This document shows positions 2,543 to 31,530 of a stretch of DNA of 32,986 nt, in pieces. The DNA comes from Bacteroidaceae bacterium (GTDB lineage: Bacteria; Bacteroidota; Bacteroidia; Bacteroidales; Bacteroidaceae), in contig JAGCCV010000021.1 of NCBI GenBank assembly GCA_017651505.1, forward strand, positions 1-32,986, in the 5' to 3' direction. Every line of letters begins with the position of its first letter. Position 1 is the first letter of the stretch. Under the pieces are notes generated by a model. That model saw only the letters and a program-made list of their open reading frames with translations. It did no database searches and was not told the DNA's origin. Made by a program: the position numbers and the translations under genes.

Positions 2543-2561
2543 CAGCCTCAAAACTTTGATC

Positions 2562-3794: not shown

Positions 3795-5061
3795 CTTTCT
3801 TGAGCTTGCCAACGGCCTCTTCCAATGACTCGGTAGGCTCAATGATGTTGTAATCCTCCCAAAAAGCCTCATCATAAAAATCCTGTACCTTGTCAGACAA
3901 GACATCACTGTTGTGGAACGACTCGCGATATGACATACGCTCTATAGGATTATCCACACGGTTTGTCACCACCATCTCCGACACCACCGTATAGTTCGTA
4001 GTAAACAACCTGCGACGCCAATCGCAGCGGAAACGATATTCACCGCGGATATAGTTCAAGTAAAAGTGCCCCTCCTGATAGCGGTAGGTTACCAGATATG
4101 TCAGCTCCAATGGGCGGAATCGCATTGACGCCGGCTTCTTGCGCAACATCTGCCTCGTCACCTTGTTAGGGTCGCTCATGTCCATAGAAAATTCTATTCT
4201 ACTGATGCCTAAGCTTTCTCGGTCAATATAGATAGTGCCGGCATATAGTGGGAAATCCAGCACCACTGGCTTCGGCTTGAAGCTAATGGCATACTGCACA
4301 CGGTCGTCTATCGAGACATAGTCCTTGAAGTCATAGCTGTACATCTCCATAAACTCAGGATCCAGCAACACATCAGGGTTCTTCACCGCATCCACATAGG
4401 TAGCCAGGTTAGGACCGCCCTCCAGCTTCACACTCAGCGTGTCCTTCAAGTCAGGGCTTGCCACACTGCGGCTCTTCGCAATCCTCACCCTGTCTCTGAT
4501 GGCACCTTGCGTATAGCTGGTCTTAAACGACTCAGTCACCGCCTCCGAAATGGTGATATACCGGTTGCGCTTCTGAATTGTCTCTCGATAGAACATATAG
4601 TTCAGCGTTGGCACCGTGCTGTAGTTCTGCCTCACTTTGTCAAGGGCGCTCTCCACCAACAGGCGTGCATTCACAGGACTCACCACAATCTCATTCAGGC
4701 GGAATGAGCTCTGTGACAGGAAATATTCGTTGCCGGTGCTGGCCAGCCTGTCCACCTCCACCTGGTTAGAGCTATAGCCAAGGTACGAAAACTGCAGAAA
4801 CACCTTTGTGCCGGGATCCTTAAATTTCAGTGTAAATACACCGTCGGCATTGGTCACCGTACCAATGTTGGTACCGGGCACATAAACGCTCACATACTCC
4901 AGTTTGCGGTGCGACTTCTGATCTTTCACCACACCACTTACGGTAATCATGTTTTCATTCATTCGCTCAGTGATGGTCTGGGCCATAGCAGATGTGACAC
5001 AGCCTACCAGCATGAGGCAAGCTATCCAGATTCTTAACTGTGTATGCATGATTGATTTCAT
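3772..5061 (-). CDS. Secreted protein with carboxypeptidase-type regulatory domain and DUF5686-like body
   Basis: 429-residue exported protein. Residues 1-27 form a signal peptide ending AMAQ with no lipobox. Residues about 38-115 are a CarboxypepD_reg-like beta-sandwich (SGVVKDQKSHRKLEYVSVY, then NADGVF), the domain found at the N-terminus of TonB-dependent receptors and many Bacteroidetes envelope proteins. The rest resembles the DUF5686 type of secreted/outer-membrane protein and contains no TonB plug or full barrel. Location is probably periplasm or outer membrane; function unknown. Met5 (start at 5049) is an alternative start. A TATATTTG -7 element lies upstream. The 3' end overlaps the convergent M16 peptidase gene by 23 bases. 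Confidence 0.8.
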   Translation of the reverse strand: MKSIMHTQLRIWIACLMLVGCVTSAMAQTITERMNENMITVSGVVKDQKSHRKLEYVSVYVPGTNIGTVTNADGVFTLKFKDPGTKVFLQFSYLGYSSNQVEVDRLASTGNEYFLSQSSFRLNEIVVSPVNARLLVESALDKVRQNYSTVPTLNYMFYRETIQKRNRYITISEAVTESFKTSYTQGAIRDRVRIAKSRSVASPDLKDTLSVKLEGGPNLATYVDAVKNPDVLLDPEFMEMYSYDFKDYVSIDDRVQYAISFKPKPVVLDFPLYAGTIYIDRESLGISRIEFSMDMSDPNKVTRQMLRKKPASMRFRPLELTYLVTYRYQEGHFYLNYIRGEYRFRCDWRRRLFTTNYTVVSEMVVTNRVDNPIERMSYRESFHNSDVLSDKVQDFYDEAFWEDYNIIEPTESLEEAVGKLKKAIDRNAK

Positions 5062-5090
5062 CTTCGTGTAGTTTTGTAGTTATACTTTTG

Positions 5091-5098
5091 CAAATATA
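5091..5098 (-). promoter_or_regulatory. -7 element TATATTTG upstream of the carboxypeptidase-regulatory-domain gene
   Basis: Minus strand TATATTTG matches TANNTTTG, 29 bases before the start codon at 5061. No TTTG is found at the expected upstream spacing, so support rests on the -7 box alone. Confidence 0.4.
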
Positions 5099-5186
5099 AA
5101 AGAAAAATATGAAAGATAATCATCAATGATGATGCCTTTTTTTCGTTTTGATGCAAAAAGTATCCCCCCCTCATCTCTTCTCGCGA

Positions 5187-5765
5187 TTATTCATTCAGTC
5201 TTTGGCGACTAAACTCGCATCCACAATACAACTGATTATAGAAACCATACTCCCTAAGCAGTTGATTTCGTCGTTCCTGCAAGCCCCCTTTACGCCAATT
5301 CTGTTCCCAAAAGGTCACTCCCTCCATTTGCGCAGCTGCCCATTGTCCCGCCTCGTTAATCTGCTCCAAGCTCTTCCAACGCGAAGATGCTAGTGTGGTA
5401 GTAAATGTCGTGAATCCATGCTCTGCAGCGTAGTGAGCCGTTTGCAATAATCGCATCTTGAAGCATTGCAGGCAACGCCTCCCTCGCTCTGGTTCGTTTT
5501 CCAGTCCACACACACCCTCTTTCCATTCCTCATAATCGTAGTCAGCATCCACAAATGCCAAACCTTGACTCTTCACGAAGCGCTTTGCCTCTGCCTTGCG
5601 GGTTTCATATTCCTCAAAAGGATAGATATTGGGATTGTAAAAATAAACAGTAGGATGAATACCATTGGCCACCATACATTCTATGATGGCAGACGAGCAA
5701 GGAGCACAACAGCTATGCAGCAACACCTTATCATCCTTATTCGGCGTTTCTATCTTCAACATCAT
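5187..5765 (-). CDS. queH: Epoxyqueuosine reductase QueH
   Basis: Last step of queuosine biosynthesis: reduces epoxyqueuosine to queuosine in tRNA. QueH is the non-cobalamin replacement of QueG. The 192-residue protein carries the family's cysteine set: HSCCAPCS (Cys19, Cys20, Cys23), RCLQCF (Cys98, Cys101) and YCGCEFS (Cys181, Cys183). These hold the Fe-S cluster and a second metal in this family. It also has the family segment FYNPNIYP (42-49). The start overlaps the 3' end of the WbqC gene by 29 bases (26 if Met2 is used), suggesting translational coupling. Last gene of the dapB-lepB-WbqC-queH run. Confidence 0.93.
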   Translation of the reverse strand: MMLKIETPNKDDKVLLHSCCAPCSSAIIECMVANGIHPTVYFYNPNIYPFEEYETRKAEAKRFVKSQGLAFVDADYDYEEWKEGVCGLENEPERGRRCLQCFKMRLLQTAHYAAEHGFTTFTTTLASSRWKSLEQINEAGQWAAAQMEGVTFWEQNWRKGGLQERRNQLLREYGFYNQLYCGCEFSRQRLNE

Positions 5766-6396
5766 TAATCGACTGCTTCAGCAACAACAAGCTCTCAGGA
5801 CCGAGATTAAACAGTAAATCCACAATACTCAAGTTCGGTATAAAACCCAGTTTCTCTTGAAACACTTGGTAGTAAGGCACTACCTTAAACGCCCCATCCA
5901 TCATAGCATAGTCATGCTTGGGATGGATTACCTCTCGCAAGTCCAATGAACCATTGCCTACCTCCTTAATATATTCAGAAGTCCTCTCTACACAAGGTTG
6001 CATATCAATCAGTCCGCAAATCATCTCCTGCAATGCTTCATTGAAATCTATTAGGAATTCATATCCCTTTTCATAGAAAGGCACGAAATCATCACGATAG
6101 TATTCAAAATAAGGCGTATGGCCATAGGCCGATTCAAGTGCATAAAAGTGCAGATGCCTCCAATTGCCGTGGTCGCTGATACGTATATCCTTTGTAGGGC
6201 ATTTCAGAGAGTCCGGTTTCACCGTAGGTACTGTAAGATCTATTCTACCCGCTGGCCCTGCAATGATACATCTGTTGCGGTAGGTCTGCTTCATATAGTG
6301 ATCATGTTGTTCCACCCGCACTTTGTCGGCAGCCAGCATATGTGCATAATACTCTATTGGTGCCAGATAAGCAGTTGTCAGAAAAACCACACCCAT
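5737..6396 (-). CDS. WbqC-like family protein
   Basis: 219-residue cytoplasmic protein of the WbqC family (PF08889), whose members often sit in O-antigen or glycan loci but whose biochemical role is not firmly established. The N-terminal TAYLAPIEYYAHM (residues 7-19), the YRNRC segment, HLHFYALESAYG and the PYFEYYRDD stretch are family-typical. I chose ATG 6396 because its A is shared with the lepB stop (TGATG junction), a classic coupling arrangement. An upstream in-frame GTG at 6417 would add seven residues inside lepB. It overlaps queH downstream by 29 bases. Confidence 0.85.
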   Translation of the reverse strand: MGVVFLTTAYLAPIEYYAHMLAADKVRVEQHDHYMKQTYRNRCIIAGPAGRIDLTVPTVKPDSLKCPTKDIRISDHGNWRHLHFYALESAYGHTPYFEYYRDDFVPFYEKGYEFLIDFNEALQEMICGLIDMQPCVERTSEYIKEVGNGSLDLREVIHPKHDYAMMDGAFKVVPYYQVFQEKLGFIPNLSIVDLLFNLGPESLLLLKQSINDVEDRNAE

Positions 6397-7904
6397 CACT
6401 TGATGCCATCCACCCACTTAAACAGTCGGCTCCATCGAATCTTACCGTCCAACCAGTCACGGTCCTTATCGAGTGACAGCCATATCAATACAGGCTTACC
6501 AACCACATGATCCTCGGGCACAAAGCCCCAATAGCGTGAGTCTGCACTCTTATGGCGGTTATCTCCCATCATCCAGTAATAATCCATCTGGAAAGTATAT
6601 TCATTGGTCTTCACCCCATTGATATAGATGCCGTCGTCCTTACGCTCCAGTTGATTACCCTCGTATGCCACGATGCAACGCTCATAAATTGGCAAGTTGT
6701 CGTCGTTCAGTGTTATGGTAGCCCCTTTCTTAGGTATCCATATCGGGCCGTAGTTGTTACGGTTCCATTTCGTATAGAGGTTTAGCGGATAGAGGTCACC
6801 AATGAAGTTCTCCCTTTCTGGCTCCATCACAATCTTGCTCACCAGCTTCTTGTTAGCTTGCAGAGTCTGCAACATCTTCTTTGTCAGCGGCAGGTTATAG
6901 GTAGGTGCCAGCTTACCGTTCTGCATACGCGTGTTCAGACCCATGCTTTGCAATTCGGTTTCCCACGAAGCATCGCCACCCATCTCCCAACGGTCCTCCT
7001 CGCTGATGCCCAATTCCTTAAACATCTCGTCAGTAATCACAGGCCCAGTGGTTTGCACAAAGTAGTTCAGCTGCATATTCTCAGGATCCTCTATCTGTTT
7101 CCCGTTCAGCCACACATGCGTATCAATGATTTGCAGTGTGTCGCCAGGCAGACCCACACAACGCTTTACATAGTTCTCCCTACGGTCAACAGGTCTTGTC
7201 ACCACCTCACCATATATACGCGGATTACTCTTTATCAATTTACTGCCTTCGGCATAGAAGATACCATAAGCTGTGCGTTGTTGACTACGTGTCAGCGATT
7301 CCATATCCACCCTTTCGCCAAATCGGCGTTTACCTTCAGAATATGCCAGCGAGTAGAAGTCGGTCTGTTGGAAGTTCAGTGCCACCGTATCGCCAGCGGG
7401 GAAGTTAAACACTACGATATCGTTCAGCTTTACCTTCTGCCATCCTGGTGCCCGTTTGTATTTCCATTGTGGCCATTCCACATACGATTTCATGTTCGTA
7501 CCAGGTATCGTGTGTTGCGTCAGCGGTAACGACAATGGTGTGTTAGGCACACGAGGACCGTAGCTAGCCTTGCTCACAAATAGGTAGTCGCCCACCAACA
7601 GGCTCTTTTCCAAACTAGATGAAGGTATTTGGTAATTTTGAAAAATATACAGATTCACAAAATAAACAGCCACTAGGGCAAACACTATGGCATCTACCCA
7701 ACTCATAATTCCTCGTGCCGTGTCGTTCTTCCATTCGTGCCAGAAGCCCCAAGGAATGAACTTAGTGATATAGGCGTCAAAGATAAACGGCACCACTATC
7801 AGTCCCCACCAACTCTTTATCCATAATAGAAACAGCAGATACAGCACCATCATGATGCCCATCATCAGCCATTGTCTTTTCGTTGCGTCTTTTAGTCTCT
7901 GCAT
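6396..7904 (-). CDS. lepB: Signal peptidase I
   Basis: Membrane serine/lysine peptidase that removes signal peptides from exported proteins. Counted from ATG 7904 (502 residues): hydrophobic segments at about 13-46 and 69-90, then QIPSSSLEKSLL with catalytic Ser97, ENYVKRCVGLPGD with catalytic Lys247, and box E GDNRHKSADSRYWG at 447-460. At about 500 residues it is much longer than the roughly 320-residue E. coli enzyme, because extra sequence lies between the Ser and Lys boxes and between Lys and box E; this is usual in Bacteroidales. A GTG directly after the dapB stop (7913) is an alternative start. Second gene of the dapB operon. Confidence 0.93.
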   Translation of the reverse strand: MQRLKDATKRQWLMMGIMMVLYLLFLLWIKSWWGLIVVPFIFDAYITKFIPWGFWHEWKNDTARGIMSWVDAIVFALVAVYFVNLYIFQNYQIPSSSLEKSLLVGDYLFVSKASYGPRVPNTPLSLPLTQHTIPGTNMKSYVEWPQWKYKRAPGWQKVKLNDIVVFNFPAGDTVALNFQQTDFYSLAYSEGKRRFGERVDMESLTRSQQRTAYGIFYAEGSKLIKSNPRIYGEVVTRPVDRRENYVKRCVGLPGDTLQIIDTHVWLNGKQIEDPENMQLNYFVQTTGPVITDEMFKELGISEEDRWEMGGDASWETELQSMGLNTRMQNGKLAPTYNLPLTKKMLQTLQANKKLVSKIVMEPERENFIGDLYPLNLYTKWNRNNYGPIWIPKKGATITLNDDNLPIYERCIVAYEGNQLERKDDGIYINGVKTNEYTFQMDYYWMMGDNRHKSADSRYWGFVPEDHVVGKPVLIWLSLDKDRDWLDGKIRWSRLFKWVDGIK

Positions 7905-7913
7905 AATTGTCAC

Positions 7914-8642
7914 TTAAAAACCGTAAACATCTTTATAGTAATCCTGTATAGTCAACAAACCCTGTTGATTAACCGTCCACTCTGCAGCCAGCACTGCACC
8001 TAGCGCAAAACCTTTACGGTTGTGTGCGTCGTGTGTAATCGTAATCAAATCGGCCTCAGAGTCATAGCGTATGGTATGTATGCCAGGCACCTCGCCACGT
8101 CTGATGTGGTCCACCCTCAGCAACTGCTTATCAGTTGTATCTTCTGCCCAAGCCGTCTTGCGGTCTATGTTGTTCACGATATCCTCTGCCAGTGTGATGG
8201 CAGTACCACTAGGATGATCCAGCTTATGCACATGGTGCGTCTCCTCCATTTCCACGTCATACTGTGGGAACTGGTTCATCACCTTGGCCAGGTATTTGTT
8301 GACAGCAGCAAATATGCCTACGCCAATCGAAAAGTTAGATGCCCAGAGCAGTGTCTTTCCCTCTTCATTGCACATACGGCGCACGTCATCGCCATGCTCC
8401 TTCATCCATCCCGTACTGCCACTTACCACCTTAACATCTTGTTTCCAAGCTTTCAGGTAGTTACTGTAGGCTGCCTGTGGAGCAGTAAACTCTATCGCCA
8501 CATCGGCACTCTTGAAAGCGTCGCTCTCAAAGTCCTGCTGGTTGTCAATATCTATTATGGACACAATCTCATGTCCTCGGCTTTGGGCTATTTGTTCTAT
8601 CATCTTGCCCATTTTTCCGTAGCCTATCAATGCGATTTTCAT
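7914..8642 (-). CDS. dapB: 4-hydroxy-tetrahydrodipicolinate reductase
   Basis: NAD(P)H-dependent reductase in the diaminopimelate/lysine pathway, supplying peptidoglycan precursor. 242 residues, a little short of the usual 250-270. The Rossmann motif GYGKMG is at 7-12, FTAPQA at 52-57 and SGSTGW at 74-79. The active-site signature ETHHVHKLDHPSGTA is at 134-148, with His136 and Lys140 matching the catalytic pair of E. coli DapB. It heads the operon dapB-lepB-WbqC-queH; lepB begins 0-9 bases after its stop. Its promoter region overlaps that of the divergent DUF2851 gene. Confidence 0.95.
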   Translation of the reverse strand: MKIALIGYGKMGKMIEQIAQSRGHEIVSIIDIDNQQDFESDAFKSADVAIEFTAPQAAYSNYLKAWKQDVKVVSGSTGWMKEHGDDVRRMCNEEGKTLLWASNFSIGVGIFAAVNKYLAKVMNQFPQYDVEMEETHHVHKLDHPSGTAITLAEDIVNNIDRKTAWAEDTTDKQLLRVDHIRRGEVPGIHTIRYDSEADLITITHDAHNRKGFALGAVLAAEWTVNQQGLLTIQDYYKDVYGF

Positions 8643-8679
8643 CTTTTTCGTGTTGTCTAAAAAAATAGTATTCGATTTC

Positions 8680-8712
8680 TTTGGTGCAAAGTTAATCTTT
8701 TTCTTACATTTG
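8680..8712 (+). promoter_or_regulatory. Promoter for the DUF2851 gene
   Basis: TTTG at 8680-8683, 21 bases, TACATTTG at 8705-8712; start codon at 8738, giving a leader of roughly 20 bases. Confidence 0.5.
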
Positions 8713-8720
8713 CCATCAAA
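8687..8720 (-). promoter_or_regulatory. Promoter for the dapB operon
   Basis: Minus strand TTTG (8720-8717), 22 bases, then TAACTTTG (8694-8687), a perfect TANNTTTG. The start codon is 44 bases downstream. It is interleaved with the promoter of the divergent gene. Confidence 0.5.
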
Positions 8721-8737
8721 TTAAAGCATTCTTAACA

Positions 8738-10018
8738 ATGGAACAGCTATTACATTTCGTTTGGAAGCACAGATTCTTCCCTTTAGAGGGGCTCAAGACT
8801 ACTACAGGAGAGGTTGTAGAAGTTGTAGACCCCGGTCTTCCTAACCCTCATGCAGGCCCCGATTTCTTTAATGCCAAATTAAAGATAGATGGTGTGTTGT
8901 GGGTAGGTAATGTGGAGATTCACCAGAAATCAAGTCATTGGTACAGTCATGCTCATCATTTGAATCCAGCTTATACCAATGTTATCATGCATGTGGTGGA
9001 AGAGGTTGATGCTGAGATTATTCGCTATGGTTCTACTAAAAAGATACCTCAATTAGTGATTGCTTGTCCTGACGAGGTGAGGCGCAAATACTCCTTACTC
9101 AAGCGAACGGACACATATCCTGCTTGTTATTCTATCATCAGGCAAATCCCTACGTTAACCATACATGCTTGGATGACGGCCTTGCAAGCTGAGCGTTTTG
9201 ACCAGAAGACAAACGCAATTAACGAACGCTTGAAACTCTGCAACGGCAATTGGGAGCAGACCCTGTTTGTTACTTTGGCGCGTAACTTCGGTTATGGACT
9301 TAATGGCGATGCCTTTGAGGCTTGGGCGAGACGAGTTAATTTTGCTGCTGTAGGGAAACACAGGGATGATATTCTACAGATAGAAGCCATCTTTTTCGGG
9401 TTAGCAGGCTTATTGAACGATCATCTTGACGATCCTTATTATCTCGCACTGCAAAAAGAATTCAAATATCTCAGTCATAAATTCAGTCTCCAACCACCAT
9501 TGCAGGCTGAGCTTTGGAAGCTGTTGCGCATTCGTCCTCAAGCATTCCCCCATACTAAGATTGCCCAATTGGCATATCTCTATCAACATCAAGAGGCTTT
9601 GTTGTCAAAAATCATAGAGGCAAAAGATGTGGAAACTGCTAAATCTTTGTTGCAGACCTCAACCTCTAGTTATTGGAAAAATCATTATCTGTTTGGCAAG
9701 GAAACCATCATGAGCGAAAAGTTGTTGAGCGACAAATCACTGAGTCTGCAGTTAATAAACACGGTCATTCCTTTTTTGCTGGCCTACGGTAAACACAAAG
9801 GGAATAACGAACTATGCCTGCGTGCTTCAAAATTTTTAGAAGAACTAAAACCTGAGGATAACTATATTACCAGGCAATGGGAACGTTTTGGCATCCATTC
9901 AGACAACGCAGCCGACTCTCAAGCGCTTATCCAACTTCACAAGGAATACTGTAACAAGCGTGACTGCCTGCGTTGCCGCATCGGATACCAATACTTGAAG
10001 GAATGGAAACACTCTTAA
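8738..10018 (+). CDS. DUF2851 family protein
   Basis: 426-residue cytoplasmic protein of the DUF2851 family (PF11013), common in Bacteroidetes; no established function. The N-terminus MEQLLHFVWKHRFF and PGLPNPHAGPDFFNAKLKIDG are family hallmarks. The early region has a strongly charged signature, GPDF (Asp42) followed by GNVEIHQK (Glu60, His62, Lys64), that resembles the D...ExK layout of PD-(D/E)XK nucleases. The C-terminus has a CX4CX2C cluster (Cys405, Cys410, Cys413), a possible metal or Fe-S site. The nuclease idea is inference only. The gene is monocistronic or weakly linked to the small gene 147 bases downstream. Confidence 0.85.
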   Translation: MEQLLHFVWKHRFFPLEGLKTTTGEVVEVVDPGLPNPHAGPDFFNAKLKIDGVLWVGNVEIHQKSSHWYSHAHHLNPAYTNVIMHVVEEVDAEIIRYGSTKKIPQLVIACPDEVRRKYSLLKRTDTYPACYSIIRQIPTLTIHAWMTALQAERFDQKTNAINERLKLCNGNWEQTLFVTLARNFGYGLNGDAFEAWARRVNFAAVGKHRDDILQIEAIFFGLAGLLNDHLDDPYYLALQKEFKYLSHKFSLQPPLQAELWKLLRIRPQAFPHTKIAQLAYLYQHQEALLSKIIEAKDVETAKSLLQTSTSSYWKNHYLFGKETIMSEKLLSDKSLSLQLINTVIPFLLAYGKHKGNNELCLRASKFLEELKPEDNYITRQWERFGIHSDNAADSQALIQLHKEYCNKRDCLRCRIGYQYLKEWKHS

Positions 10019-10616: not shown

Positions 10617-10617
10617 G

Positions 10618-10699
10618 TGCGGGTAAAAGGACTCGAACCTTCACGGATTTCTCCACCAGATCCTAAGTCTGGCGCGGCTGCCAATTACGCCATACCCGC
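10618..10699 (-). tRNA. tRNA-Leu, anticodon UAG
   Basis: Class II cloverleaf of 82 bases read on the minus strand. Acceptor GCGGGTA pairs with TACCCGC, discriminator A. The D stem is GCG/CGC. The anticodon stem CCAGA/TCTGG encloses loop CTTAGGA, giving anticodon TAG (UAG), which reads CUA and other CUN leucine codons. A 13-base variable region contains a short stem, and the T arm is GAAGG-TTCGAGT-CCTTT. A-discriminator and long variable arm both fit leucine. CCA is not encoded. It is a stand-alone gene with its own promoter. Confidence 0.95.
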
Positions 10700-12588: not shown

Positions 12589-15267
12589 TCAATTGTCGAA
12601 TAGTTTCATTTGTCCCGTCAACTCATCTAAGATATCACCATTGCTTTTATCTGCATCGAGATTCTCTACCTCTGTTGGCTCATCTGCGGGACTAGGTTCG
12701 GCAAGAGGTTCTGGAAAACGGGTAGGTTCCAGTTCCTCGACACTTTTAATAGTATAGGTAGTGAGGCGTTTACCCTTAGCTTTGTAACCCTTGATAGCGA
12801 TAAACTCGTCAGCATCCACCTCTATCTTGCCACGGAAAGAATCACCGCCTCCAAATGTAACTGAGAAGCGGGCGTAATACTGGTCGCTAAGCAATATCAG
12901 GCGGTTTTCAGGGTTGTCCCCTAAGTAGTTCTGCTTGCGATTGGTAGCCTCGAAAGCAAAACGCTTCACATATGGGAATCCCTTTTGCGACTCATCATAT
13001 AACACTGCCGTCCAAACTTTGTGTGGATCGAACTTCTCAATCACCAGGATATTATCATCGTAATGGTTATTGGTATCGAAGTCGGTAGTATAGAAATCGC
13101 CATTCTCTAACACTACGAGAATCAGCTCTCCATCTTGGAACTCACCCAGATGCTTGCCGTGACCGTCGTAGTTGAGGCGTTTCACGTCTTCGTCAAACCA
13201 AACCTCACGCCCACCTAACGTAGAGGCACCATGTGCTTTGAGGGAGATGCGATGGATGGGGAATTTGGTGAGGATGTTGCCCATTGCTTGACGACCCTTG
13301 ATGAGAATCTGACTGAAGTCTTGGTCGATGACTAAGTTCTTTAGACGCTGGTTAGGCTTAAGTGTCACCTTGATGATTTCGGCCTCGCCATTGGGATTAG
13401 CAGTGAAATACAGCATTCGGGAACCCTCCTTGCCTTGGGTGATGGTGTATTCACGGTCGTGTACCACCGCTGTTACGGCAAAGCGTTTGATGAAGTTCCA
13501 ACCATTCTTGCCATCACGATACACCACATTGTAGATAGTACGCTTGTCGTTCTTGTTGAATAGGGCGATGTAGTAAATGTCCTTGCCAACGAACTTCTTA
13601 TCGGCTACGGATGTCACCACATAGCGCCCATCGCGGAAGAAAACAATCACATCGTCAAGATTAGAGCAGTTGCTCACAAACTCTTCTTTTTTCATTTGTG
13701 AGCCATACCCTACGAAACCTTCTTCCCGGTTGACATACAATTTCTCGGTAGCCTCAATGACACGCGCTGAATCGATGACGTCGAAGTTTCGTACCTCTGT
13801 ACGGCGAGGGAATTGCGCCCCATATTTTTTCTTCAGTTTGCGGAACCAGTTGGCAGTATATTCTATCAAGTCGGCTAATAACTTGTCGATTTCCTCAATA
13901 TCGGCCTTCATCTTCAGAATAGCCTCTTCTGCCTTGTCGGAGTTGAACTTCAGGATGCGCCCCATCTTGATTTCCAGGAGTTTCAGTATATCCTCCTTGG
14001 TAACCTCACGCACCATGTAAGGATAATAAGGCGTGAGGCGATTGTCAATGTGTTCGCAAGCTGCATCGATGCTTTGCGCCTCTTCAAAATTCTTGTCCTT
14101 ATAGATGCGCTCTTCTATGAATATCTTTTCTAATGAAGCAAAATGCAACTGCTCCAGGATTTCACTCTTCTTGATTTCCAATTCCTTGCGTAACAGTTCT
14201 TTGGTGTTGTCCACCGAGCGGCGCAATACATCGCTAACACTGAGGAATTGTGGTTTCCGCTCATCGATAACGCAGCAGTTGGGTGAGATATTGATTTCGC
14301 AGTCGGTAAAAGCATATAGAGCATCGATGGTTTTGTCGGACGAAACGCCGCTTTGAAGGTGCACCAGAATTTCTACGTTGGCAGAGGTGAGGTCTTCCAC
14401 TTGCTTTACCTTGATTTTGCCTTTGTCATTGGCCTTCACGATAGAGTCACACACATTTGCTACCGTGCGACCAAAAGGCAGTTCGCGGATGGCCAAGGTG
14501 TGATTATCTACTTTCTCAATTTTGGCACGAACACGTACACTCCCACCACGTTCGCCATCATTGTATTTCGATACCTCTATGGCACCACCCGTCTGGAAGT
14601 CGGGATAGAGCTTGAAGTCCTCGTTGTGCAGGTAGCTCACGGCTGCATCGCATATCTCGTTGAAATTATGTGGCAAAATTTTAGATGATAAACCAACGGC
14701 GATACCTTCCACACCCTGCGCCAACAGAAGTGGGAACTTGACCGGCAGGTTCACTGGCTCCTCATTACGGCCATCGTAAGAGAACTGCCATTCGGTGGTT
14801 TTAGGATTAAACACCACTTCTTTTGCAAAATTGGTGAGACGTGCTTCAATATATCGGGGAGCAGCGGCCCCATCGCCAGTGAGGATATTACCCCAGTTTC
14901 CCTGGGTGTCTATCAACATTTCTTTTTGTCCTAACTGCACTAAAGCATCGCCGATAGAGGCATCTCCATGGGGGTGAAATTTCATAGTTTCGCCCACAAT
15001 GCCCGCTACTTTGTTGTAGCGTCCATCTTCCATGCGCCACATGGTGTGCAGGATACGGCGTTGCACAGGTTTGAGTCCGTCAATGATATGAGGAACAGCT
15101 CTTTCCAAAATTACATAAGAAGCATAATCCAGGAACCAATTCTCCTACATACCGCTCAATTGATGCTTGGCATTGGCATCATGGGTGTCCGTTGGTTTGT
15201 AGTCAGAGTGCCCTGTAGCTTCCTCTGTATTGAAGTCGTCAATGGGCTTATCAGCGTCTTTACTCAT
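12589..15267 (-). CDS. parC: DNA topoisomerase IV subunit A, interrupted by in-frame TAG at codon 41
   Basis: Type IIA topoisomerase breakage-reunion subunit that decatenates chromosomes with ParE. Full length would be 892 codons from ATG 15267. Family marks include NWFLDYASYVILERA (codons 43-57), DGLKPVQRRIL, HPHGDASIGDALVQL and AAPRYIEAR, whose Tyr (codon 139) is the DNA-linking tyrosine. The C-terminal beta-pinwheel and acidic tail follow. Codon 41, expected to be Tyr in the family motif GMYxNWFLDYA, is TAG (15147-15145); the frame is otherwise open across it with no indel. Without readthrough the longest downstream product starts at TTG 15108 and lacks the N-terminal arm that contacts ParE. 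Nonsense mutation, sequencing error and suppression all remain possible. Confidence 0.9.
15145..15147 (-). other. parC: Premature amber codon within parC
   Basis: TAG directly after ATG (15150-15148) in the frame ...L-S-G-M-stop-E-N-W-F-L-D-Y-A... The reading frame is conserved-family sequence on both sides. One substitution (TAC or TAT to TAG) explains it. Confidence 0.9.
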
Positions 15268-15287
15268 AAAATAGTCCTTAATTTGTG

Positions 15288-15295
15288 CAAATATA
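15288..15295 (-). promoter_or_regulatory. -7 element TATATTTG upstream of parC
   Basis: Minus strand TATATTTG, perfect TANNTTTG, 20 bases before ATG 15267. It supports the long parC start rather than a start after the TAG. No clear TTTG at the -33 spacing. Confidence 0.45.
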
Positions 15296-15329
15296 AAGAA
15301 AATTGTAGAATTATTTGAACGGAAAGCAG

Positions 15330-15337
15330 TATCTTTG
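15330..15337 (+). promoter_or_regulatory. -7 element TATCTTTG upstream of glyS
   Basis: TATCTTTG matches TANNTTTG, 32 bases before the glyS start; the -33 TTTG is not well placed. Divergent from the parC promoter within about 40 bases. Confidence 0.4.
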
Positions 15338-15369
15338 TGGCAATTTTAAGAATTTATGTGTAAAAATAG

Positions 15370-16917
15370 ATGGATATGGCACAAGAAGATGTTTTTAAAA
15401 AGATTGTTGCACACTGCAAAGAATATGGATTCGTTTTCCCAAGTAGTGATATTTATGACGGACTGGCTGCAGTATATGACTATGGCCAGAATGGTGTAGA
15501 GCTGAAAAACAACATCAAGCAGTATTGGTGGCAGAGCATGGTACTGTTGCACGACAATATCGTGGGTATCGACTCAGCTATCTTCATGCATCCAACCATA
15601 TGGAAAGCCAGCGGACACGTTGACGCATTTAACGACCCTTTGATTGACAACCGTGATTCTAAGAAGCGTTATCGTGCAGATGTGCTGATAGAGGATGAGA
15701 TTGCCAAATATGACGATAAGATTGAAAAGGAAGTGGCTAAGGCTGCTAAGCGTTTTAAAGAAGACTTTGACGAGGCTAAGTATCGTGCAACCAGTCCAAA
15801 AGTACTGGAACTGCAAGAGAAGCGTGAGGCATTGCATGCACGCTATAGTGCAGCCATGAATGCAATGGATCTGAATGAGTTGCGCCAAATTATCCTCGAT
15901 GAAGAGATTGTTTGTCCTATCAGCGGTACCAGAAACTGGACAGAGGTACGTCAGTTCAATCTGATGTTCTCAACCGAGATGGGTTCTACAGCTGATGGTG
16001 CCATGAAAGTATATTTGCGTCCTGAGACGGCTCAAGGAATCTTCGTAAACTACTTGAACGTGCAGAAGACAGGCCGTATGAAGGTACCTTTCGGTATCGC
16101 TCAGATAGGTAAGGCTTTCCGCAACGAGATCGTGGCTCGTCAGTTCATCTTCCGTATGAGGGAATTTGAACAGATGGAGATGCAGTTCTTTGTACGTCCT
16201 GGCACAGAAATGGAATGGTTCAGCAAGTGGAAGGAAACCCGTATGAAGTGGCACCAGGCACTAGGCTTCGGAGCTGATCACTATCGTTTCCATGATCACG
16301 AGAAGCTGGCACACTATGCTAATGCTGCTACCGACGTAGAGTTCCTAATGCCATTTGGTTTCAAGGAGGTGGAGGGCATCCATAGCCGTACGAACTTTGA
16401 CTTGAGCCAGCATGAAAAGTATTCAGGTAAGAGCATTAAGTATTTCGACCCAGAGACCAACGAGAGCTATACTCCGTATGTGATTGAAACCAGTATTGGT
16501 GTGGATCGTATGTTCTTGAGCGTAATGAGTGCAGCCTATACCGAGGAGCAGTTGGAGAATGGTGAGACTCGCGTGGTTCTGAAGTTGCCTGCAGCGTTGG
16601 CTCCTGTGAAGTTGGCTGTATTACCATTGGTAAAGAAAGATGGTCTGCCAGAGAAGGCACGTGAGATTGTGAACGATTTGAAGTTCCACTTCAATACTAT
16701 CTATGATGAGAAAGACAGTATCGGCAAGCGCTATCGTCGTCAGGATGCCGTGGGCACACCTTACTGCGTAACTGTTGACCACGATACGCTGAACGATAAT
16801 TGTGTGACTTTGCGTAACCGTGATACCATGCAACAGGAGCGTGTTGCTATCAGTGACCTGAACACCATCATTGCCGACCGTGTGAGCATCACCAGTTTGT
16901 TGAAGAAATTACAATAA
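15370..16917 (+). CDS. glyS: Glycyl-tRNA synthetase (alpha2 type)
   Basis: Class II aminoacyl-tRNA synthetase charging tRNA-Gly, of the single-polypeptide homodimeric type. 515 residues from ATG 15370; ATG 15376 (MAQEDVF) is equally plausible and gives 513. The N-terminus FVFPSSDIYDGLAAVYDYG and motif 1 region are canonical. Motif 2 is FRNEIVARQFIFRMREFEQ around 250-268, motif 3 is IETSIGVDRMF around 372-382. The C-terminal anticodon-binding domain starts near LAPVKLAVLPLV. It is followed after 3 bases by the FKBP-like gene, so the two are almost certainly co-transcribed. Confidence 0.96.
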   Translation: MDMAQEDVFKKIVAHCKEYGFVFPSSDIYDGLAAVYDYGQNGVELKNNIKQYWWQSMVLLHDNIVGIDSAIFMHPTIWKASGHVDAFNDPLIDNRDSKKRYRADVLIEDEIAKYDDKIEKEVAKAAKRFKEDFDEAKYRATSPKVLELQEKREALHARYSAAMNAMDLNELRQIILDEEIVCPISGTRNWTEVRQFNLMFSTEMGSTADGAMKVYLRPETAQGIFVNYLNVQKTGRMKVPFGIAQIGKAFRNEIVARQFIFRMREFEQMEMQFFVRPGTEMEWFSKWKETRMKWHQALGFGADHYRFHDHEKLAHYANAATDVEFLMPFGFKEVEGIHSRTNFDLSQHEKYSGKSIKYFDPETNESYTPYVIETSIGVDRMFLSVMSAAYTEEQLENGETRVVLKLPAALAPVKLAVLPLVKKDGLPEKAREIVNDLKFHFNTIYDEKDSIGKRYRRQDAVGTPYCVTVDHDTLNDNCVTLRNRDTMQQERVAISDLNTIIADRVSITSLLKKLQ

Positions 16918-18438: not shown

Positions 18439-19821
18439 TTATTCTTTTCCTCCACCCAATGCCGCATAGAGGTTGATGACAGCCTGCATACGTTCGTAAG
18501 TATCAGACACCTCATTCAACTGGGCACTGAGGTATGACTGCTGTGCGCTCAGTACCTCTAAATAAGAAGAGTTGCCCAACTGGAATAGTTCTGCAGTATC
18601 GTCAGAAGCCTTCTTGGCTGAGGCTACCTGCACCTTGCGCGATTCTGATTTCTCTGTGTTCATCTGGTATTGATAAAGCGCATTGCTCACTTCGTTGCCA
18701 GCCTTTAACAAAGCAGTCTGGAAAGTAAGCTTGGCTTTCTCTTCATTAGCCTTGGCAGCCTTTAGGCCGGCAATCAGTCTGCCTCTTGCAAACAGTGGCT
18801 GGGTGATGCCCGCCATGAGGGTGGTCATGAATTTTCCAGGATTGACAACCTGTCCCAGGTTGTTGGTCCAAGCCTCTTGACCAGTAATTGTGAGCTGAGG
18901 GAAGAAAGCGGCACGTGCACTGTTGGTGTCATAATAGCAAGCAGCTAACGACATCTCAGCGGCCTTGACATCAGGACGGTTGGCAAGCAGCTGTACAGGA
19001 ACACCGGTCAGGAAGTCGGTCGGCAACTGTTGCTCGTCAAACTTGTTGCGGGGAATCTGCTGACCAGGTACGTTCAGTATCAGGCATAGAGAGTTCTCTA
19101 TCTCACGGATGCTCTGCTTGATACCCGAGAGCGAAGCCACTACCTGTGCATATCCTGTACGGCTCTGCTCTACGGCAGCACTATTGGTCATACCTGCATC
19201 CTTCATTGCTTCCATAGTTTCCACTGTGCGTTGCATCAAACCGGCTGTCTCTTCGGAAATCTCGTACTGGCGGTCCATCATCAGCAGGGAATAATAGAGA
19301 TTGGCAACTGCTGAGATGATGTTGGTCTGCACGGCCTGCTGGTAATACTGAGCCTGCTGGTAGGTAACCTTTGCCTTGCGGTGAGGGTTCAACAACTGAC
19401 CGAACAGGTCAACCTGCCAGGAAGCTGCCACTGGTACTGAGTAAGTCCATACGTTAGTGCCCATGGCATGGTTAAAAGTACCTTGAGGTGAAAGCGATAA
19501 GCTGGGCAGGTATGACAAGCGGGCAGATGTCAGCGATGCCTGAGCCTGCTCAATGGTCAGCTCAGCGCTTCGCATATCCGCATTGTTCTCTAAGGCCTGC
19601 TCAATGAGAGCCTGAAGCTGAGTATCGGTGAACACTTCGCGCCAAGGCAGGTCGCCAAATGTCTCACCTGCTACGGCATTCAGTGTGTCTGTGTCCGACA
19701 TGGGGTCACGATACAAGCCCTCTGTCACCAGGTCTTCTGGTCTTTCGTAAGATTTGTAGATACGGCAGCTGCTCATCATAACTGCCACACCTACCATATA
19801 TATTATAATACTCTTCTTCAT
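18439..19821 (-). CDS. RND efflux outer-membrane factor (OprM/NodT family lipoprotein)
   Basis: 460-residue TolC-fold outer-membrane channel of a tripartite efflux pump. Lipobox MSSC (Cys19) follows a signal peptide. Two OEP-type repeats with long alpha-helical hairpins are visible: ALIEQALENNADMRSAELTIEQAQA near the start, then LLANRPDVKAAEMSLAAC (280-297), the conserved NRPDV...AE signature of NodT-family factors. The C-terminal half ends QQSYLSAQLNEV. It lies 9 bases downstream of the pump gene. Confidence 0.93.
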   Translation of the reverse strand: MKKSIIIYMVGVAVMMSSCRIYKSYERPEDLVTEGLYRDPMSDTDTLNAVAGETFGDLPWREVFTDTQLQALIEQALENNADMRSAELTIEQAQASLTSARLSYLPSLSLSPQGTFNHAMGTNVWTYSVPVAASWQVDLFGQLLNPHRKAKVTYQQAQYYQQAVQTNIISAVANLYYSLLMMDRQYEISEETAGLMQRTVETMEAMKDAGMTNSAAVEQSRTGYAQVVASLSGIKQSIREIENSLCLILNVPGQQIPRNKFDEQQLPTDFLTGVPVQLLANRPDVKAAEMSLAACYYDTNSARAAFFPQLTITGQEAWTNNLGQVVNPGKFMTTLMAGITQPLFARGRLIAGLKAAKANEEKAKLTFQTALLKAGNEVSNALYQYQMNTEKSESRKVQVASAKKASDDTAELFQLGNSSYLEVLSAQQSYLSAQLNEVSDTYERMQAVINLYAALGGGKE

Positions 19822-19830
19822 AGATAGTTT

Positions 19831-22800
19831 TTATTTAGTATATTGTGCAATTTCAGGAGTAGCGTCTGAATTGTCGATATCCGACCATTCAATAGGCTTC
19901 ACTTTCTCCTGCAAGTGCTGGAATACCACGAACAGCATCGGTACGAAGAAAATCTGTAGAATCATACCGATTAACATACCGCCTACAGCTGCGGCACCCA
20001 AAGTACGGTTGCCATGAGCACCTACACCGAAGGCAAACATCAGCGGCAACAGACCTACGATCATGGCCAAAGAGGTCATCAAAATAGGACGCAGACGGGC
20101 TGCTGCACCTAATACGGCAGCCTTAGATAAGCTCATGCCTTGCTTTCTGCGATCGAGGGCAAACTCCACAATCAGAATGGCGTTCTTTGCCAACAGACCC
20201 ATCAGCATGATCAATGCAATCTGCATGTAGATATCGTTCGACATTGAGCCCATGATCATCTGCAAGATTGAGAACGAACCGATGGCGCTCATGATGTTCA
20301 CGAAGATGAAGCTGCCCATCAGACCGAAAGGTACTGACAACAATACCGCAAGCGGCAGGATGTAGCTTTCGTATTGTGCACTCAGCAGCAGATACACGAA
20401 TACAAAGCAGAGCAGGAAGATGATGGCAGTAGTACTGCCGCTGGTCTCTGCTTCCTCACGTGCCAGACCGCCCAGTTCATAGCCAAAGCCTGAAGGCAGG
20501 GTCTGAGCCACCTCGTCAATGGCCTGTAATGCCTGACCAGATGTATAGCCGGCAGCAGGAGAAACCATGACAGTCATAGCTGTGTACATGTTGAAACGGT
20601 TGATCACATCAGGGCCATATACCTTCTTCATACTGAAGAACTGTGTAATAGGAGCCATTTCTCCCTTGCTGTTCTTGATCTTGATGTTTTTCAGTGTCTC
20701 AATGTCCTTGGTTGCCTCAGGGTCAGCCTGTACCATTACACGGTACATACGTCCGAAGCGGTTGAAGTTGGATGCATACATACCACCATAGTAGCCTTGC
20801 ATGGCAGCGAGGATGGTAGAAGGACTTACTCCTGCACGCTTACAAGCGGCAGCATCGATGTCCATCTCATACTGGGGGAAATCAGGACTGAATGAAGTAC
20901 GTGCAGAATTGATCTCTGGACGAGCCTCCAAAGCAGCATCGTAATCGTTTACTACCTGGAAGAAGTTCTCCAGTGAACCACCCGTCTTGTCCTGCATAAA
21001 CAGCTGGATGTCGCTTGACATTGAGTAACCCTGGATCATAGGCGGCTGGAAGAAAAGTACCTGAGCCTCAGGAATGATCTTCTGTGCACGCATATATAAG
21101 GTGATGAATACCAGCTGTGAGTTTTGCATCAAGCCACGCTCCTCAAAGTTTTTCAACTTGATGATGAACGAGCCGTATGAAGGACCGCTACCGCCCGTGA
21201 AACTGAAGCCGGAAATCATGGTACGACTCTGAACGGCTGGTTCTGCTGCGATGAGGCTGTCAACGCGGAGCATGATCTCAATAGCACGTTCCTGCGAGGT
21301 ACCAGCTGGTAGGGTTACAGTTCCCATCAGTGTACCGGTATCTTCGTTAGGCACCATACCCGTGGGGGTGGTCTGCATCAGCAGTACCAATGCGATGATA
21401 GATGCTGCCACGATACCCCAGGAAAGTTTCTTGTGCTCAATAAAGTAAGCTACATGCTTCTTGTATTTTTCCAGTGTCTTGTCATACCAGCGGTTGAAGC
21501 CACGGTGGAACTTCTCGACACGGCTCACTTTCTCCTCTTCGCCTTCCTCATTCTTCTTGTGAGGTTTCAGGAAGATGGCACAAAGCGCAGGACTCAATGT
21601 CAGTGCATTGATAGCCGAGAAACCGATGGCGATGGCCATGGTCATACCAAACTGCTGGTAGAATGCGCCTGCTGTACCGCTCATGAAGCTCACAGGGATA
21701 AACACAGACATCATGACCAGGGTGATGGAAACAATGGCACCGGCCAATTCGCGCATGGCATCAATACTTGCCTGCTTGGCAGAGGTATAACCTTGGTCAA
21801 GCTTGGCATGGACACCTTCCACCACCACAATCGCATCATCGACCACGATGGCAATGGCAAGTACCAGTGCCGAGAGTGTCAGCAGGTTCAGGCTGAAGCC
21901 TATGACGTATAGTAGGAAGAAAGTACCAATCAGTGCCACGGGGATGGCGATGGCAGGAATCAGCGTAGAACGGAAGTCCTGCAAGAAGATATACACCACG
22001 ATGAACACCAGGATGAACGCCTCAATCAAGGTCTTGATTACCTCGTAGATGGAAGCGAACAAGAATTCGTTCACACTTTGGGCAACATTAATTTTCAAAC
22101 CTGCAGGCAACCGGCCATCAAAGCTGTTCAGGGTCTCTTCAATTGCCTGTACGGCCTCTGTAGCGTTAGAACCGGGTAGCTGCATGGCTATGGCAGTCAC
22201 GGCCTTGTGTCCGTTCACGCGGTTGAAGAATGAGTAAGACATACGTCCCAACTCCACACGCGCCACGTCTTTCATGCGCAGCAGGCTACCGTCATCCAGT
22301 GATTTGAGAACGATGTCCTCAAATTCCTCAGGCGTCTGCAAACGGCCCTTGTAGCGAATGGTGTATTGGTAGGTCTGGTTGCCTTGTACACCAAACTGAC
22401 CAGGGGCAGCTTCAACGTTTTGTTCTGACAATGCGTTGGTGATGTCTGATGGCATCAGGCCATACTGTGACATGATTTCGGGCTTCAGCCATATACGCAT
22501 AGAGTAGTCCACACCCATCACCTGGGTATCGCCCACACCTTTGATACGCTGAATCTCCGGTAAGATGTTGATAGAAGCGTAGTTCTCAATAAATTCTGTT
22601 GTATGGGTGTCGCTCTCGTCAAAGAGTGAGAAAATCAACAGGAATGATGTTTGACGCTTCATGGTCATGATACCCACTCGTGTTACCTCGGCAGGCATCA
22701 GACCTTGTGCCATTGACACGCGGTTCTGCACGTGAATAGCAGCCATGTCAGGGTCGGTTCCCTGCTTGAAGGTAATGGTAATCTGCGCCGTACCGCTATT

Positions 22801-23052
22801 GGAAGCGGATGAACTCATGTACATCATGTTCTCCACACCGTTGATCTGGTTTTCCAGCGGAGCCACCACTGAGTTCAACACCGTCTGGGCATTTGCACCA
22901 GGGTAGGTGGTATATACCATGATGGTAGGAGGCGCGATATTAGGATACTGGGTAATTGGCAGCTGAGTCAGTCCAATGAAACCCAATATCACTATTAGGA
23001 TGGAGATAACCGTACTGAGTACCGGCCTATTTATAAATCTATCTAAATTCAT
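19831..23052 (-). CDS. RND-family multidrug efflux permease (AcrB/HAE1 type)
   Basis: 1073-residue inner-membrane proton antiporter. It starts MNLDRFINRPVLSTVISI (first transmembrane helix). The proton-relay pair Asp405-Asp406 sits in IVVDDAIVVVEG, and the partner Lys is in GLLAKNAILIVEFA near residue 955. LPITQYPNIAPP and YPGANAQTV are HAE1 hallmarks. Twelve membrane segments and two large periplasmic loops are as expected, making it AcrB-like rather than a metal (CusA) pump. Substrates cannot be told from sequence. Middle gene of the three-part efflux operon. Confidence 0.95.
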   Translation of the reverse strand: MNLDRFINRPVLSTVISILIVILGFIGLTQLPITQYPNIAPPTIMVYTTYPGANAQTVLNSVVAPLENQINGVENMMYMSSSASNSGTAQITITFKQGTDPDMAAIHVQNRVSMAQGLMPAEVTRVGIMTMKRQTSFLLIFSLFDESDTHTTEFIENYASINILPEIQRIKGVGDTQVMGVDYSMRIWLKPEIMSQYGLMPSDITNALSEQNVEAAPGQFGVQGNQTYQYTIRYKGRLQTPEEFEDIVLKSLDDGSLLRMKDVARVELGRMSYSFFNRVNGHKAVTAIAMQLPGSNATEAVQAIEETLNSFDGRLPAGLKINVAQSVNEFLFASIYEVIKTLIEAFILVFIVVYIFLQDFRSTLIPAIAIPVALIGTFFLLYVIGFSLNLLTLSALVLAIAIVVDDAIVVVEGVHAKLDQGYTSAKQASIDAMRELAGAIVSITLVMMSVFIPVSFMSGTAGAFYQQFGMTMAIAIGFSAINALTLSPALCAIFLKPHKKNEEGEEEKVSRVEKFHRGFNRWYDKTLEKYKKHVAYFIEHKKLSWGIVAASIIALVLLMQTTPTGMVPNEDTGTLMGTVTLPAGTSQERAIEIMLRVDSLIAAEPAVQSRTMISGFSFTGGSGPSYGSFIIKLKNFEERGLMQNSQLVFITLYMRAQKIIPEAQVLFFQPPMIQGYSMSSDIQLFMQDKTGGSLENFFQVVNDYDAALEARPEINSARTSFSPDFPQYEMDIDAAACKRAGVSPSTILAAMQGYYGGMYASNFNRFGRMYRVMVQADPEATKDIETLKNIKIKNSKGEMAPITQFFSMKKVYGPDVINRFNMYTAMTVMVSPAAGYTSGQALQAIDEVAQTLPSGFGYELGGLAREEAETSGSTTAIIFLLCFVFVYLLLSAQYESYILPLAVLLSVPFGLMGSFIFVNIMSAIGSFSILQMIMGSMSNDIYMQIALIMLMGLLAKNAILIVEFALDRRKQGMSLSKAAVLGAAARLRPILMTSLAMIVGLLPLMFAFGVGAHGNRTLGAAAVGGMLIGMILQIFFVPMLFVVFQHLQEKVKPIEWSDIDNSDATPEIAQYTK

Positions 23053-23089
23053 CTATGTCTCAATTAATTTAGTGAATGTTTAATGTTCA

Positions 23090-23111
23090 ATTGTCAATGG
23101 CTATTGTCAAT
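23090..23111. repeat. Short direct repeat ATTGTCAAT x2 in the adaptor-pump gap
   Basis: ATTGTCAAT at 23090-23098 and again at 23103-23111, within a sequence also containing two CAATTG. It lies in the 61-base gap between the adaptor and pump genes. Similar in style to the AATTCTC repeat in parE; possibly a simple-sequence element common in this lineage. Confidence 0.5.
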
Positions 23112-23113
23112 TG

Positions 23114-24295
23114 TTATTGCATTGCACTCTGCAAGTTACCTTCCTTCTGGTCCTTCAGGTTCTGCTGGTAGATTTCCTCTTTCTCTGACGAGGTGATAGG
23201 ATCAATCGTCGCACCGTCGCGCAAGGTCTGGATGCCTTCAATAGCAATCTTGTCACCAGCTTTCACACCGCTTAATACAACGAAATTCTTGCCGTCGGCA
23301 ACGGGATGGACGGTAATCTCGGTAGTCTTAACAGTATTGTCAGACTGCAGCAGGTAAACGAAACGCTTGTCCTGTACCTCGAATGTAGCGCTCTGTGGCA
23401 CCAGGATAATGTTCTCCAGGTCGTTGGGGAACACTACATTTACAGTAGAACCACGGCGCAGCACCTTCTTGGGGTTAGGGAACAGGGCACGTAGATTTAC
23501 AGAACCGGTGGTAACATCAATGTCACCGCTGATGGTCTCAACATGGCCTCTTTCGGCATACATGGAACCATCGATCAACTGGAGACGTACTTCAGGGAAT
23601 CCCTTGAGGATGTCTTCGGCGCCGTTGCTCTCGGTCATCTGCAGCAGCTCACGCTCTGTCATGCTGAAGTAGGCATACATGTTGCTCAGGTCGCTTACGG
23701 TAGTCAGTGGTTGTGCTGATGAAGGACTTACCAGACTACCCAAACGGTAAGGAATCTGGCCTACTACACCGTCAGTAGGACTTGTAACAGTGGTATATTG
23801 TAAGTTTTTCTGTGCGTTCATCAAAGAAGCCTCAGCCTGTGCCAAACCGGCTTTTGCACTTGCCAGTTGGTTTTCCTGCATCTGCAGGTCGTAGTCGCTA
23901 GTGATATTTTTCTCGTTTAGTCGTCTGCGGTTGTCAACAGTAAGCTGTTGGGTTGCCACTGTAGCCTTGGCACTCTCAACTGCTGCCTTAGCTTGGTTCA
24001 CAGCTGCTTGATACTGAGTCTGATCAATGGTGAACAGCACTTGTCCGCGTCTTACAAAAGAACCTTCATCTACATGCAGATGAGTAATAAATCCGCTTAC
24101 CATTGGACGGATGTCAACATCTTGCTTACCTCTGATGGTAGCAGGATAAGAGTTTGTCAAGTGAGAGGATGTTGTGTTCAGTGTCATCACAGTAATCTTA
24201 GGCGCATTGCCACCTGCTTGTGAACTGCCTCCACCTCCGCAACTGCTCAGCAAAGCTATACAGCTGGCAGCTAATAAAATCAAATTACTCTTCAT
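23114..24295 (-). CDS. RND efflux periplasmic adaptor (AcrA/membrane fusion protein)
   Basis: 393-residue lipoprotein that bridges pump and outer-membrane channel. Signal peptide with lipobox LSSC (Cys19) and Gly/Ser linker. The lipoyl half-motifs flank a helical hairpin: GFITHLHVDEGSFVRRGQVLF before it, NLQYTTVTSPTDGVVGQIPYRLG after it. Beta-barrel and membrane-proximal domains follow (FPNPKKVLRRGSTVNV, VLSGVKAGDKIAIEG). First gene of the efflux operon. The leader upstream holds a -7 element and a hairpin-forming inverted repeat. Confidence 0.94.
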   Translation of the reverse strand: MKSNLILLAASCIALLSSCGGGGSSQAGGNAPKITVMTLNTTSSHLTNSYPATIRGKQDVDIRPMVSGFITHLHVDEGSFVRRGQVLFTIDQTQYQAAVNQAKAAVESAKATVATQQLTVDNRRRLNEKNITSDYDLQMQENQLASAKAGLAQAEASLMNAQKNLQYTTVTSPTDGVVGQIPYRLGSLVSPSSAQPLTTVSDLSNMYAYFSMTERELLQMTESNGAEDILKGFPEVRLQLIDGSMYAERGHVETISGDIDVTTGSVNLRALFPNPKKVLRRGSTVNVVFPNDLENIILVPQSATFEVQDKRFVYLLQSDNTVKTTEITVHPVADGKNFVVLSGVKAGDKIAIEGIQTLRDGATIDPITSSEKEEIYQQNLKDQKEGNLQSAMQ

Positions 24296-29589: not shown

Positions 29590-31530
29590 ATGAATAAGGA
29601 ATCGGATAATACTATGAAGGACAATGAACAATTGGCATCGTCTAATTCTCAATTCTCAATTCTCAATTCTCAAACACCTGTAGATTATACTGACGATAAC
29701 ATCCGCCATTTGGATGATATGGATCATATCCGCATGCGTTCAGGTATGTATATCGGTCGCCTCGGCGATGGTTCACAGTCTGACGATGGTATCTATGTCT
29801 TACTGAAAGAAACTGTTGACAATAGTATCGACGAGTTCAAGATGGGGGCGGGCAACCGTATTGAGGTAACCATTGAGGATAACCTTCGTGTGAGTGTGCG
29901 CGACTATGGTCGAGGCATTCCTCAAGGAAAGATGGTAGAAGCCGTGAGCAAACTGAATACGGGTGGCAAGTATGACAGCAAGGCGTTCAAGAAAAGCGTG
30001 GGACTTAATGGTGTAGGTCTGAAGGCTGTCAATGCCCTTAGCATACACTTCGAGGTACGTAGCTTTCGTGATGGAATGGTGCGAATTGCCAAGTTTGAGT
30101 GTGGCAAACTTGTGAGCGATGTAACTGAACCTACTACCGAACCTACAGGTACCTATATCTATTTCGAGCCTGACAGCACCCTCTTCACCGGCTATATCTA
30201 TCACAATGACATAGTGGAGAATCTGCTCAAAAACTATACTTATCTGAACACAGGTCTTTCCATTTTGTATAATGGACAGAAGATTCTCTCTCGTCACGGA
30301 CTGGAAGACCTGCTGAAAGACAATATGACGATGGATGGCCTGTATGATATCGTCCACTTGAAGGGCACTGACATCGAACTGGCTTTTACCCACACCAACC
30401 AGTATGGTGAGGAGTATTATTCGTTCGTCAATGGTCAGCATACCACCCAAGGTGGAACCCACCAGAGCGCATTGAAGGAGCATTTGGCGCGCACCATCAA
30501 AGAGTTTTACAACAAGAACTTTGAATACAGTGACATCCGTAACGGATTGGTAGCTGCCATTGCCATCAACGTTGAAGAACCTCAGTTCGAGGGACAAACC
30601 AAGACCAAACTCGGTTCTACGCTGATGGAACCAGATGGTGTGACCATCAACAAATATATAGCCGACTTCGTGAAGCAGGAGGTAGATAACTACCTGCACA
30701 AGAACCCACTGATGACCGAAGCTATGCTACAGAAGATACAAGCTTCTGAGAAGGAGAGAAAGGCGATAGCCGGTGTCACCAAGCTGGCGCGCGAGCGTGC
30801 CAAGAAAGCCAATCTGCACAACAGTAAACTGCGCGATTGCCGTTACCACCTCAATGACGGTAAGGGAAAGTCTCAGGAAGAGCAGTCTTGCATCTTCATC
30901 ACCGAGGGTTTGTCGGCCAGCGGTTCTATCACCAAGAGCCGTGATGTCAATACCCAGGCGGTATTCAGTCTTCGAGGCAAGCCACTCAATTCATACGGTC
31001 TTACTAAGAAAGTAGTGTATGAAAACGAGGAGTTCAACCTTTTACAAGCTGCCCTCAATATTGAGGACGGTCTCGATGGCTTGAGATATAATAAGGTGAT
31101 TGTCGCGACCGATGCCGATGTCGATGGCATGCATATCCGCCTGCTAATGATTACCTTCTTCCTGCAGTTCTTCCCCGACCTTATTAAGAAAGGACACGTC
31201 TATATATTACAAACGCCGTTGTTCCGCGTTCGTAACAAGAAGAAAACCACCTATTGCTATACTGAAGATGAACGTGTGAAAGCCGTCAAGAAGTTAGGCC
31301 CTAAGCCAGAAATTACCCGATTTAAGGGTTTAGGAGAGATTGACCCTGATGAGTTTAAGAACTTTATTGGTGAAGATATGCGTCTTGAGCAGGTCAACCT
31401 GCACAAGACCGATTTGGTGAAGGAGTTGTTGGCCTTCTACATGGGCAAGAACACCATGGAGCGACAGGCATTCATCATCAACAACCTGGTGATTGAAGAA
31501 GATTTGGTAACCGAAGATTTCAATATATGA
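29590..31530 (+). CDS. parE: DNA topoisomerase IV subunit B
   Basis: ATPase/TOPRIM subunit partnering ParC, 646 residues. GHKL ATPase motifs: [11 protein letters not shown] (Glu74 base, Asn78 for Mg), DYGRGIP (105-111), [14 protein letters not shown] (138-151). [14 protein letters not shown] (439-446) and [11 protein letters not shown] with Asp508/510/512. [13 protein letters not shown] is near the C-terminus. The usual EGDSA has Leu441 in place of Asp. ParE rather than GyrB is judged by Bacteroidetes-type sequence and the coaD linkage. The first 30 residues are non-conserved and include peptide from four AATTCTC repeats; Met9 (29614) is an alternative start. The stop overlaps the coaD start (ATGA). 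Confidence 0.93.
29644..29671 (+). repeat. Heptanucleotide repeat (AATTCTC)x4 inside the parE 5' coding region
   Basis: Four perfect tandem copies, encoding part of residues 19-27. Seven is not a multiple of three, so a one-copy change would shift the reading frame from either upstream ATG (29590 or 29614). Confidence 0.95.

Follow-up and report, generated by a model that had tools for sequence, protein, structure and literature searches.

The A subunit of topoisomerase IV in Bacteroidales (NCBIfam NF009397, PRK12758) features an N-terminal block of the form GM-Tyr-x-NWFLDYA. The parC gene described here is like it in sequence, length, start, and this block, but the source draft alone has a stop at codon 41. 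In-frame TAG codons in conserved genes are a feature of amber-suppressed or recoded genomes. Spurious inferences of recoding are treated in the Codetta paper, which attributes those in eight species of yeast to pseudogenes and puts several more down to contamination (PMC8629427). In the available part of a further paper, readthrough is given only relative to wild type (PMC12713390). A search of an open-licence library of papers found no report of an amber codon in parC.

The source genome (G000) is a draft in 98 contigs totaling 1,635,938 bases, with a completeness of 59.94% and a contamination of 1.08%. Its closest named relatives with a stated source, whose parC is 87–95% identical, are metagenome assemblies of Bacteroidaceae or Bacteroidales sampled from the reticulum of goat, the rumen of sheep and roe deer, and the omasum of yak; the source genome was presumably also metagenome-assembled and of like origin. 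The window—the whole stretch of DNA that was analyzed, 32,986 nucleotides long—is contig C5 of this genome, positions 1–32986. It contains the gene and the stop codon as follows:

12589..15267, minus strand: parC, encoding topoisomerase IV subunit A; only codon 41 interrupts the frame

15145..15147, minus strand: TAG in the parC frame at codon 41, from frame reading; among the genomes compared, a stop in the source genome alone

On the minus strand, the frame of parC opens with ATG at 15267–15265, runs through 40 sense codons ending in LSGM, and meets TAG at 15147–15145. Downstream of the TAG, the same frame resumes with ENWFLDYASYVILERAVPH without any indel and extends to the terminal stop at 12591–12589. 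The original prediction had described this arrangement, and reading of the minus-strand frame bears it out; the observation is right in all details that can be tested, yet it concerns one event in one genome. The poststop frame, taken from TTG 15108, is identified by NCBIfam NF009397 (DNA gyrase/topoisomerase IV subunit A) over profile positions 40–869 of 870, with 1340 bits against a cut-off of 780. The encoded protein is 95.3% identical to ParC of the relative G029 across the 891 residues of the latter. As judged by the near-full-length profile match, the gene belongs to ParC, and its reading frame is interrupted by the TAG at codon 41. The stop is present in the deposited sequence and private among the compared genomes, and the gene that surrounds it is normally constrained.

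A strong match to ParC was found in 58 of the 61 genomes searched, the source genome included. Of 111 loci, 103 have a readable N-terminal block; none but that of the source genome has a stop at the codon-41 site, and in the relatives, at least 833 codons separate the block from the next stop. The set for the N-terminal motif was reduced from 110 loci to 99 distinct rows by omitting seven—L007 and L037, which begin after the site, and L081, L090, L099, L103, and L110, which do not match the motif pattern—and by merging four identical rows. At codon 41, these rows, some of which are near-identical copies from one species, carry Tyr in 97 cases, Phe in one, and the stop of the source genome in one. 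The claim that the amber codon replaces a conserved Tyr thus holds, with Tyr in 97 of the 99 rows. The sole Phe row is L039, from a yak cecum Bacteroides metagenome-assembled genome, and it indicates that the site conserves an aromatic side chain and not Tyr as such. The survey was extended to 399 genomes of the family, evenly sampled from a larger group and including the source genome. The pattern for a stop or TGG at codon 41 occurs in one of them, the source genome; the Tyr pattern occurs in 249, and 149 match neither.

Two further candidates were rejected in the course of this comparison. A conserved or programmed readthrough site was dismissed because no stop stands at codon 41 in any of the 98 other rows or, by pattern, in any of the 398 other family genomes (149 of which match neither pattern). 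Apparent internal stops in parC of L009, L013–L016, L019, L020, L025, and L026 are ordinary terminal stops at residues 888–891; this inspection covered the flagged rows that have a locus, which leaves aside the second G033 match and G038.

The start of the gene and a hypothetical start downstream of the stop are placed as follows:

15288..15295, minus strand: TATATTTG, presumed -7 box of the Bacteroidetes type, 20 bases upstream of the ATG at 15267

15370..16917, plus strand: glycine--tRNA ligase, intact divergent neighbor, from profile match and comparison with relatives

15106..15108, minus strand: TTG at codon 54, first ATG, GTG, or TTG past the TAG; hypothetical re-initiation site

The element TATATTTG, which we take from the general consensus of such elements to be a -7 box, lies where it had been predicted, and a box like it is retained at the equal offset in five of seven close relatives (L032, L033, L034, L036, and L038). 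In L046 and L040, the box is not at that offset; the parC leader is longer, with the box near -60. The start codon and the first 40 residues are kept in close relatives with few changes, which speaks against the possibility that the conserved frame begins only after the amber site. An interval of about 100 bases (15267–15370) separates parC from the divergent gene for glycine--tRNA ligase, and the parC leader differs in two of the seven relatives.

Re-initiation at TTG 15108, or at some nonstandard start, would yield a ParC without approximately 53 residues. A frame of 839 codons does open at this TTG, and in a search with the intact ParC of L032, the match starts at residue 56 for 1ab4 (GyrA) and at residue 54 for 1zvu (topoisomerase IV subunit A), so that a protein beginning at residue 54 could perhaps fold. 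However, 1zvu, 1ab4, and a few others among the 60 matches listed for L032 start at 52–57, whereas most GyrA/ParC rows among them start at residues 28–44. The shortened product would also lack NWFLDYASYVI, a segment nearly invariant in the relatives' rows, which were chosen by a motif partly covering it. Without the N-terminal arm, both contact with ParE and cleavage would be expected to suffer, and the upstream start is the one retained in close relatives. Re-initiation at TTG 15108 is a purely theoretical possibility, and such a truncated ParC is very unlikely.

The remainder of parC bears no mark of decay. Across the whole frame, compared with relatives, the source gene has neither a second stop nor a frameshift, and in the 99-row alignment, it has no private residue in columns that are invariant among the other rows; this count excludes the stop column since one relative has Phe there. 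The dN/dS ratios of the source gene against G029, G027, and G013 are 0.0249, 0.0219, and 0.0299, and those for the three pairs among these relatives are 0.024, 0.0317, and 0.0212. Against G006, no ratio is given because silent sites are saturated. Private base changes in the source gene amount to 12 amino-acid-changing and 19 silent ones; the corresponding counts are 7/11 in G029, 1/11 in G027, 3/8 in G013, 15/13 in L034, 25/35 in L036, and 17/16 in L038. A decaying pseudogene was therefore rejected as a candidate: Further stops or frameshifts are absent, and dN/dS is like that among relatives. Given an otherwise undecayed gene, the stop at codon 41 is either young or not real.

Whether a genuine stop could be tolerated depends on the complement of topoisomerase subunits, for which the window contains one more relevant gene:

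29590..31530, plus strand: parE-like gene, presumed partner subunit, from an open frame with a PF00204 match above cut-off

Among A subunits, the source genome carries one parC and one gyrA; among B subunits, it carries one gyrB and one more gene, that at 29590–31530. The NCBIfam models for gyrB and parE match the latter below their curated cut-offs, and the other B subunit, on contig C1, is recognized as gyrB, so that the name parE is assigned by elimination. The parE-like gene is 96.1% identical to its counterpart in G027. A second parC, which had been put forward as an option, finds no support: In the approximately 60% complete genome, the only other match is gyrA on contig C84. parC is normally essential, and with one parC found, true loss of function would deprive topoisomerase IV of an A subunit. 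A real and recent nonsense allele would mean cells with little or no ParC, which are dying or slow, or which survive by weak natural readthrough or by means of gyrase. The TAG base is present in the consensus, parC is single in the genome as assembled, and none of the other 49 compared genes is broken, all of which would suit such an allele. It is at odds, however, with the normal essentiality of the gene, with the lack of relaxed selection in parC, and with a stop common to no other compared genome, and we consider it unlikely.

The decoding of TAG in this genome appears ordinary. The genes for both release factors are open, with RF1 scoring 482 bits against NF001859 (cut-off 400) and RF2 449 bits against TIGR00020 (cut-off 370). 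In 45 orthologous genes of the source genome, the stop is TAA in 30, TGA in 11, and TAG in four, and all four TAG-ended genes end within three residues of the relative's end; the view of TAG as an ordinary stop here is thereby upheld. No CUA anticodon was found by ARAGORN at the 27 tRNA places of the genome, which is 59.9% complete. The missing anticodon is weak evidence since tRNA-Tyr was likewise not recovered from this incomplete genome. A genome-wide reassignment of UAG was rejected because RF1 is not lost and a single in-frame TAG occurs in 50 genes with 20,228 codons. The doubt that had been cast on global reassignment is hence confirmed by the presence of RF1, by TAG at true gene ends, and by the lack of any other internal TAG in the sample. 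Taken together, RF1 and RF2, TAG-ended genes, and the single internal stop offer no evidence that the code has been altered, and none that speaks positively for suppression.

A real stop that is passed efficiently, either by an amber suppressor tRNA or by a local readthrough signal, would give full-length ParC. This would suit the poststop frame, which is fully kept, and with 27 tRNA genes only, a suppressor might reside in the missing part of the genome. Against it stand RF1 and RF2 with scores above the curated cut-offs, the absence of a CUA anticodon at the 27 places, TAG as the conserved end of four of 45 genes, and the absence of further in-frame TAG codons inside genes over the 20,228 codons. 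In addition, a conserved regulatory site would need a stop in relatives, and none of those compared has one. Functional readthrough of codon 41 has no positive support and is very unlikely. Were it true, which is highly improbable, a genuine amber codon in the single parC of the lineage, passed by an unseen suppressor tRNA or strong local readthrough, would throttle topoisomerase IV.

In-frame stops were surveyed in the window and 318 kb of other contigs of the source genome (of 1.64 Mb) against stretches of G027 and G029. Matches with at least 65% identity over at least half of the relative's open reading frame were retained, a rule by which finely fragmented genes would escape. The 63 comparisons (26,372 codons) reduce to 50 distinct genes with 20,228 aligned codons, 27 of these genes lying in the window, and within genes, no in-frame stop other than codon 41 of parC occurs. 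Three stops upstream of the window-gene starts at 24508, 27362, and 28346, which fall in over-long open reading frames of relatives, were not counted as breaks, and stops in many small or antisense shadow frames were disregarded.

Other parts of the window were described in the same comparisons. Colinearity with G027 breaks near 10.0–10.6 kb (1–10010 and 10617–10699); a tRNA-Leu with anticodon TAG is located at this break, and the genes at 3–10009 are inverted and approximately 50 kb distant on the same G027 contig. A putative three-gene efflux set of the RND type adjoins lpxA at 18439–24295. An outer-membrane subunit and a periplasmic adaptor, both identified by profile matches, flank a protein of 1073 amino acids, and against G029 or G027, all frames of the set are complete.

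A private stop, a single-copy and normally essential gene, normal constraint, and a 60% complete draft are together best fitted by one wrong or minority base. Judged from the sequence, the TAG is probably due to a single such base in the thin draft's consensus. It may have been taken into that consensus either as a sequencing or assembly error or as a rare or very recent nonsense variant, and the TAG base would then not represent the majority of living cells. In the population, parC would most likely code for a normal topoisomerase IV subunit A of full length, which at codon 41 has an aromatic residue as in relatives. In parC, 4.2% of single-base changes create a stop (333 of 8019), so that one stop per approximately 20,000 codons would require an error rate of a few in 10,000 bases—an estimate based on one event. 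Two observations count against an error: The other 49 aligned genes are free of internal stops, and the sequence is thus not visibly error-ridden; and the site lies 15 kb into the 33 kb window, away from its ends. The original prediction had left its options unranked; sequencing or assembly error emerges as the best-fitting one and its reservation about global reassignment stands, while the second parC falls away.

The case serves mainly as a caution: When an essential gene in a fragmentary draft has a lone in-frame stop, the reads call for a check before recoding is invoked. Should the stop prove real and fixed, the locus would offer a natural example of an essential gene behind an amber codon. 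Like amber-suppressed or recoded genomes, the source genome has an in-frame TAG in a conserved gene, parC; unlike them, it retains RF1, ends genes with TAG at their true ends, and yielded no CUA tRNA. As far as the available part of the Codetta paper describes them, spurious stops resemble the present one in being in-frame on a sense column with no suppressor tRNA found (PMC8629427). They differ from it in that a single codon of a single, otherwise undecayed gene is affected here.
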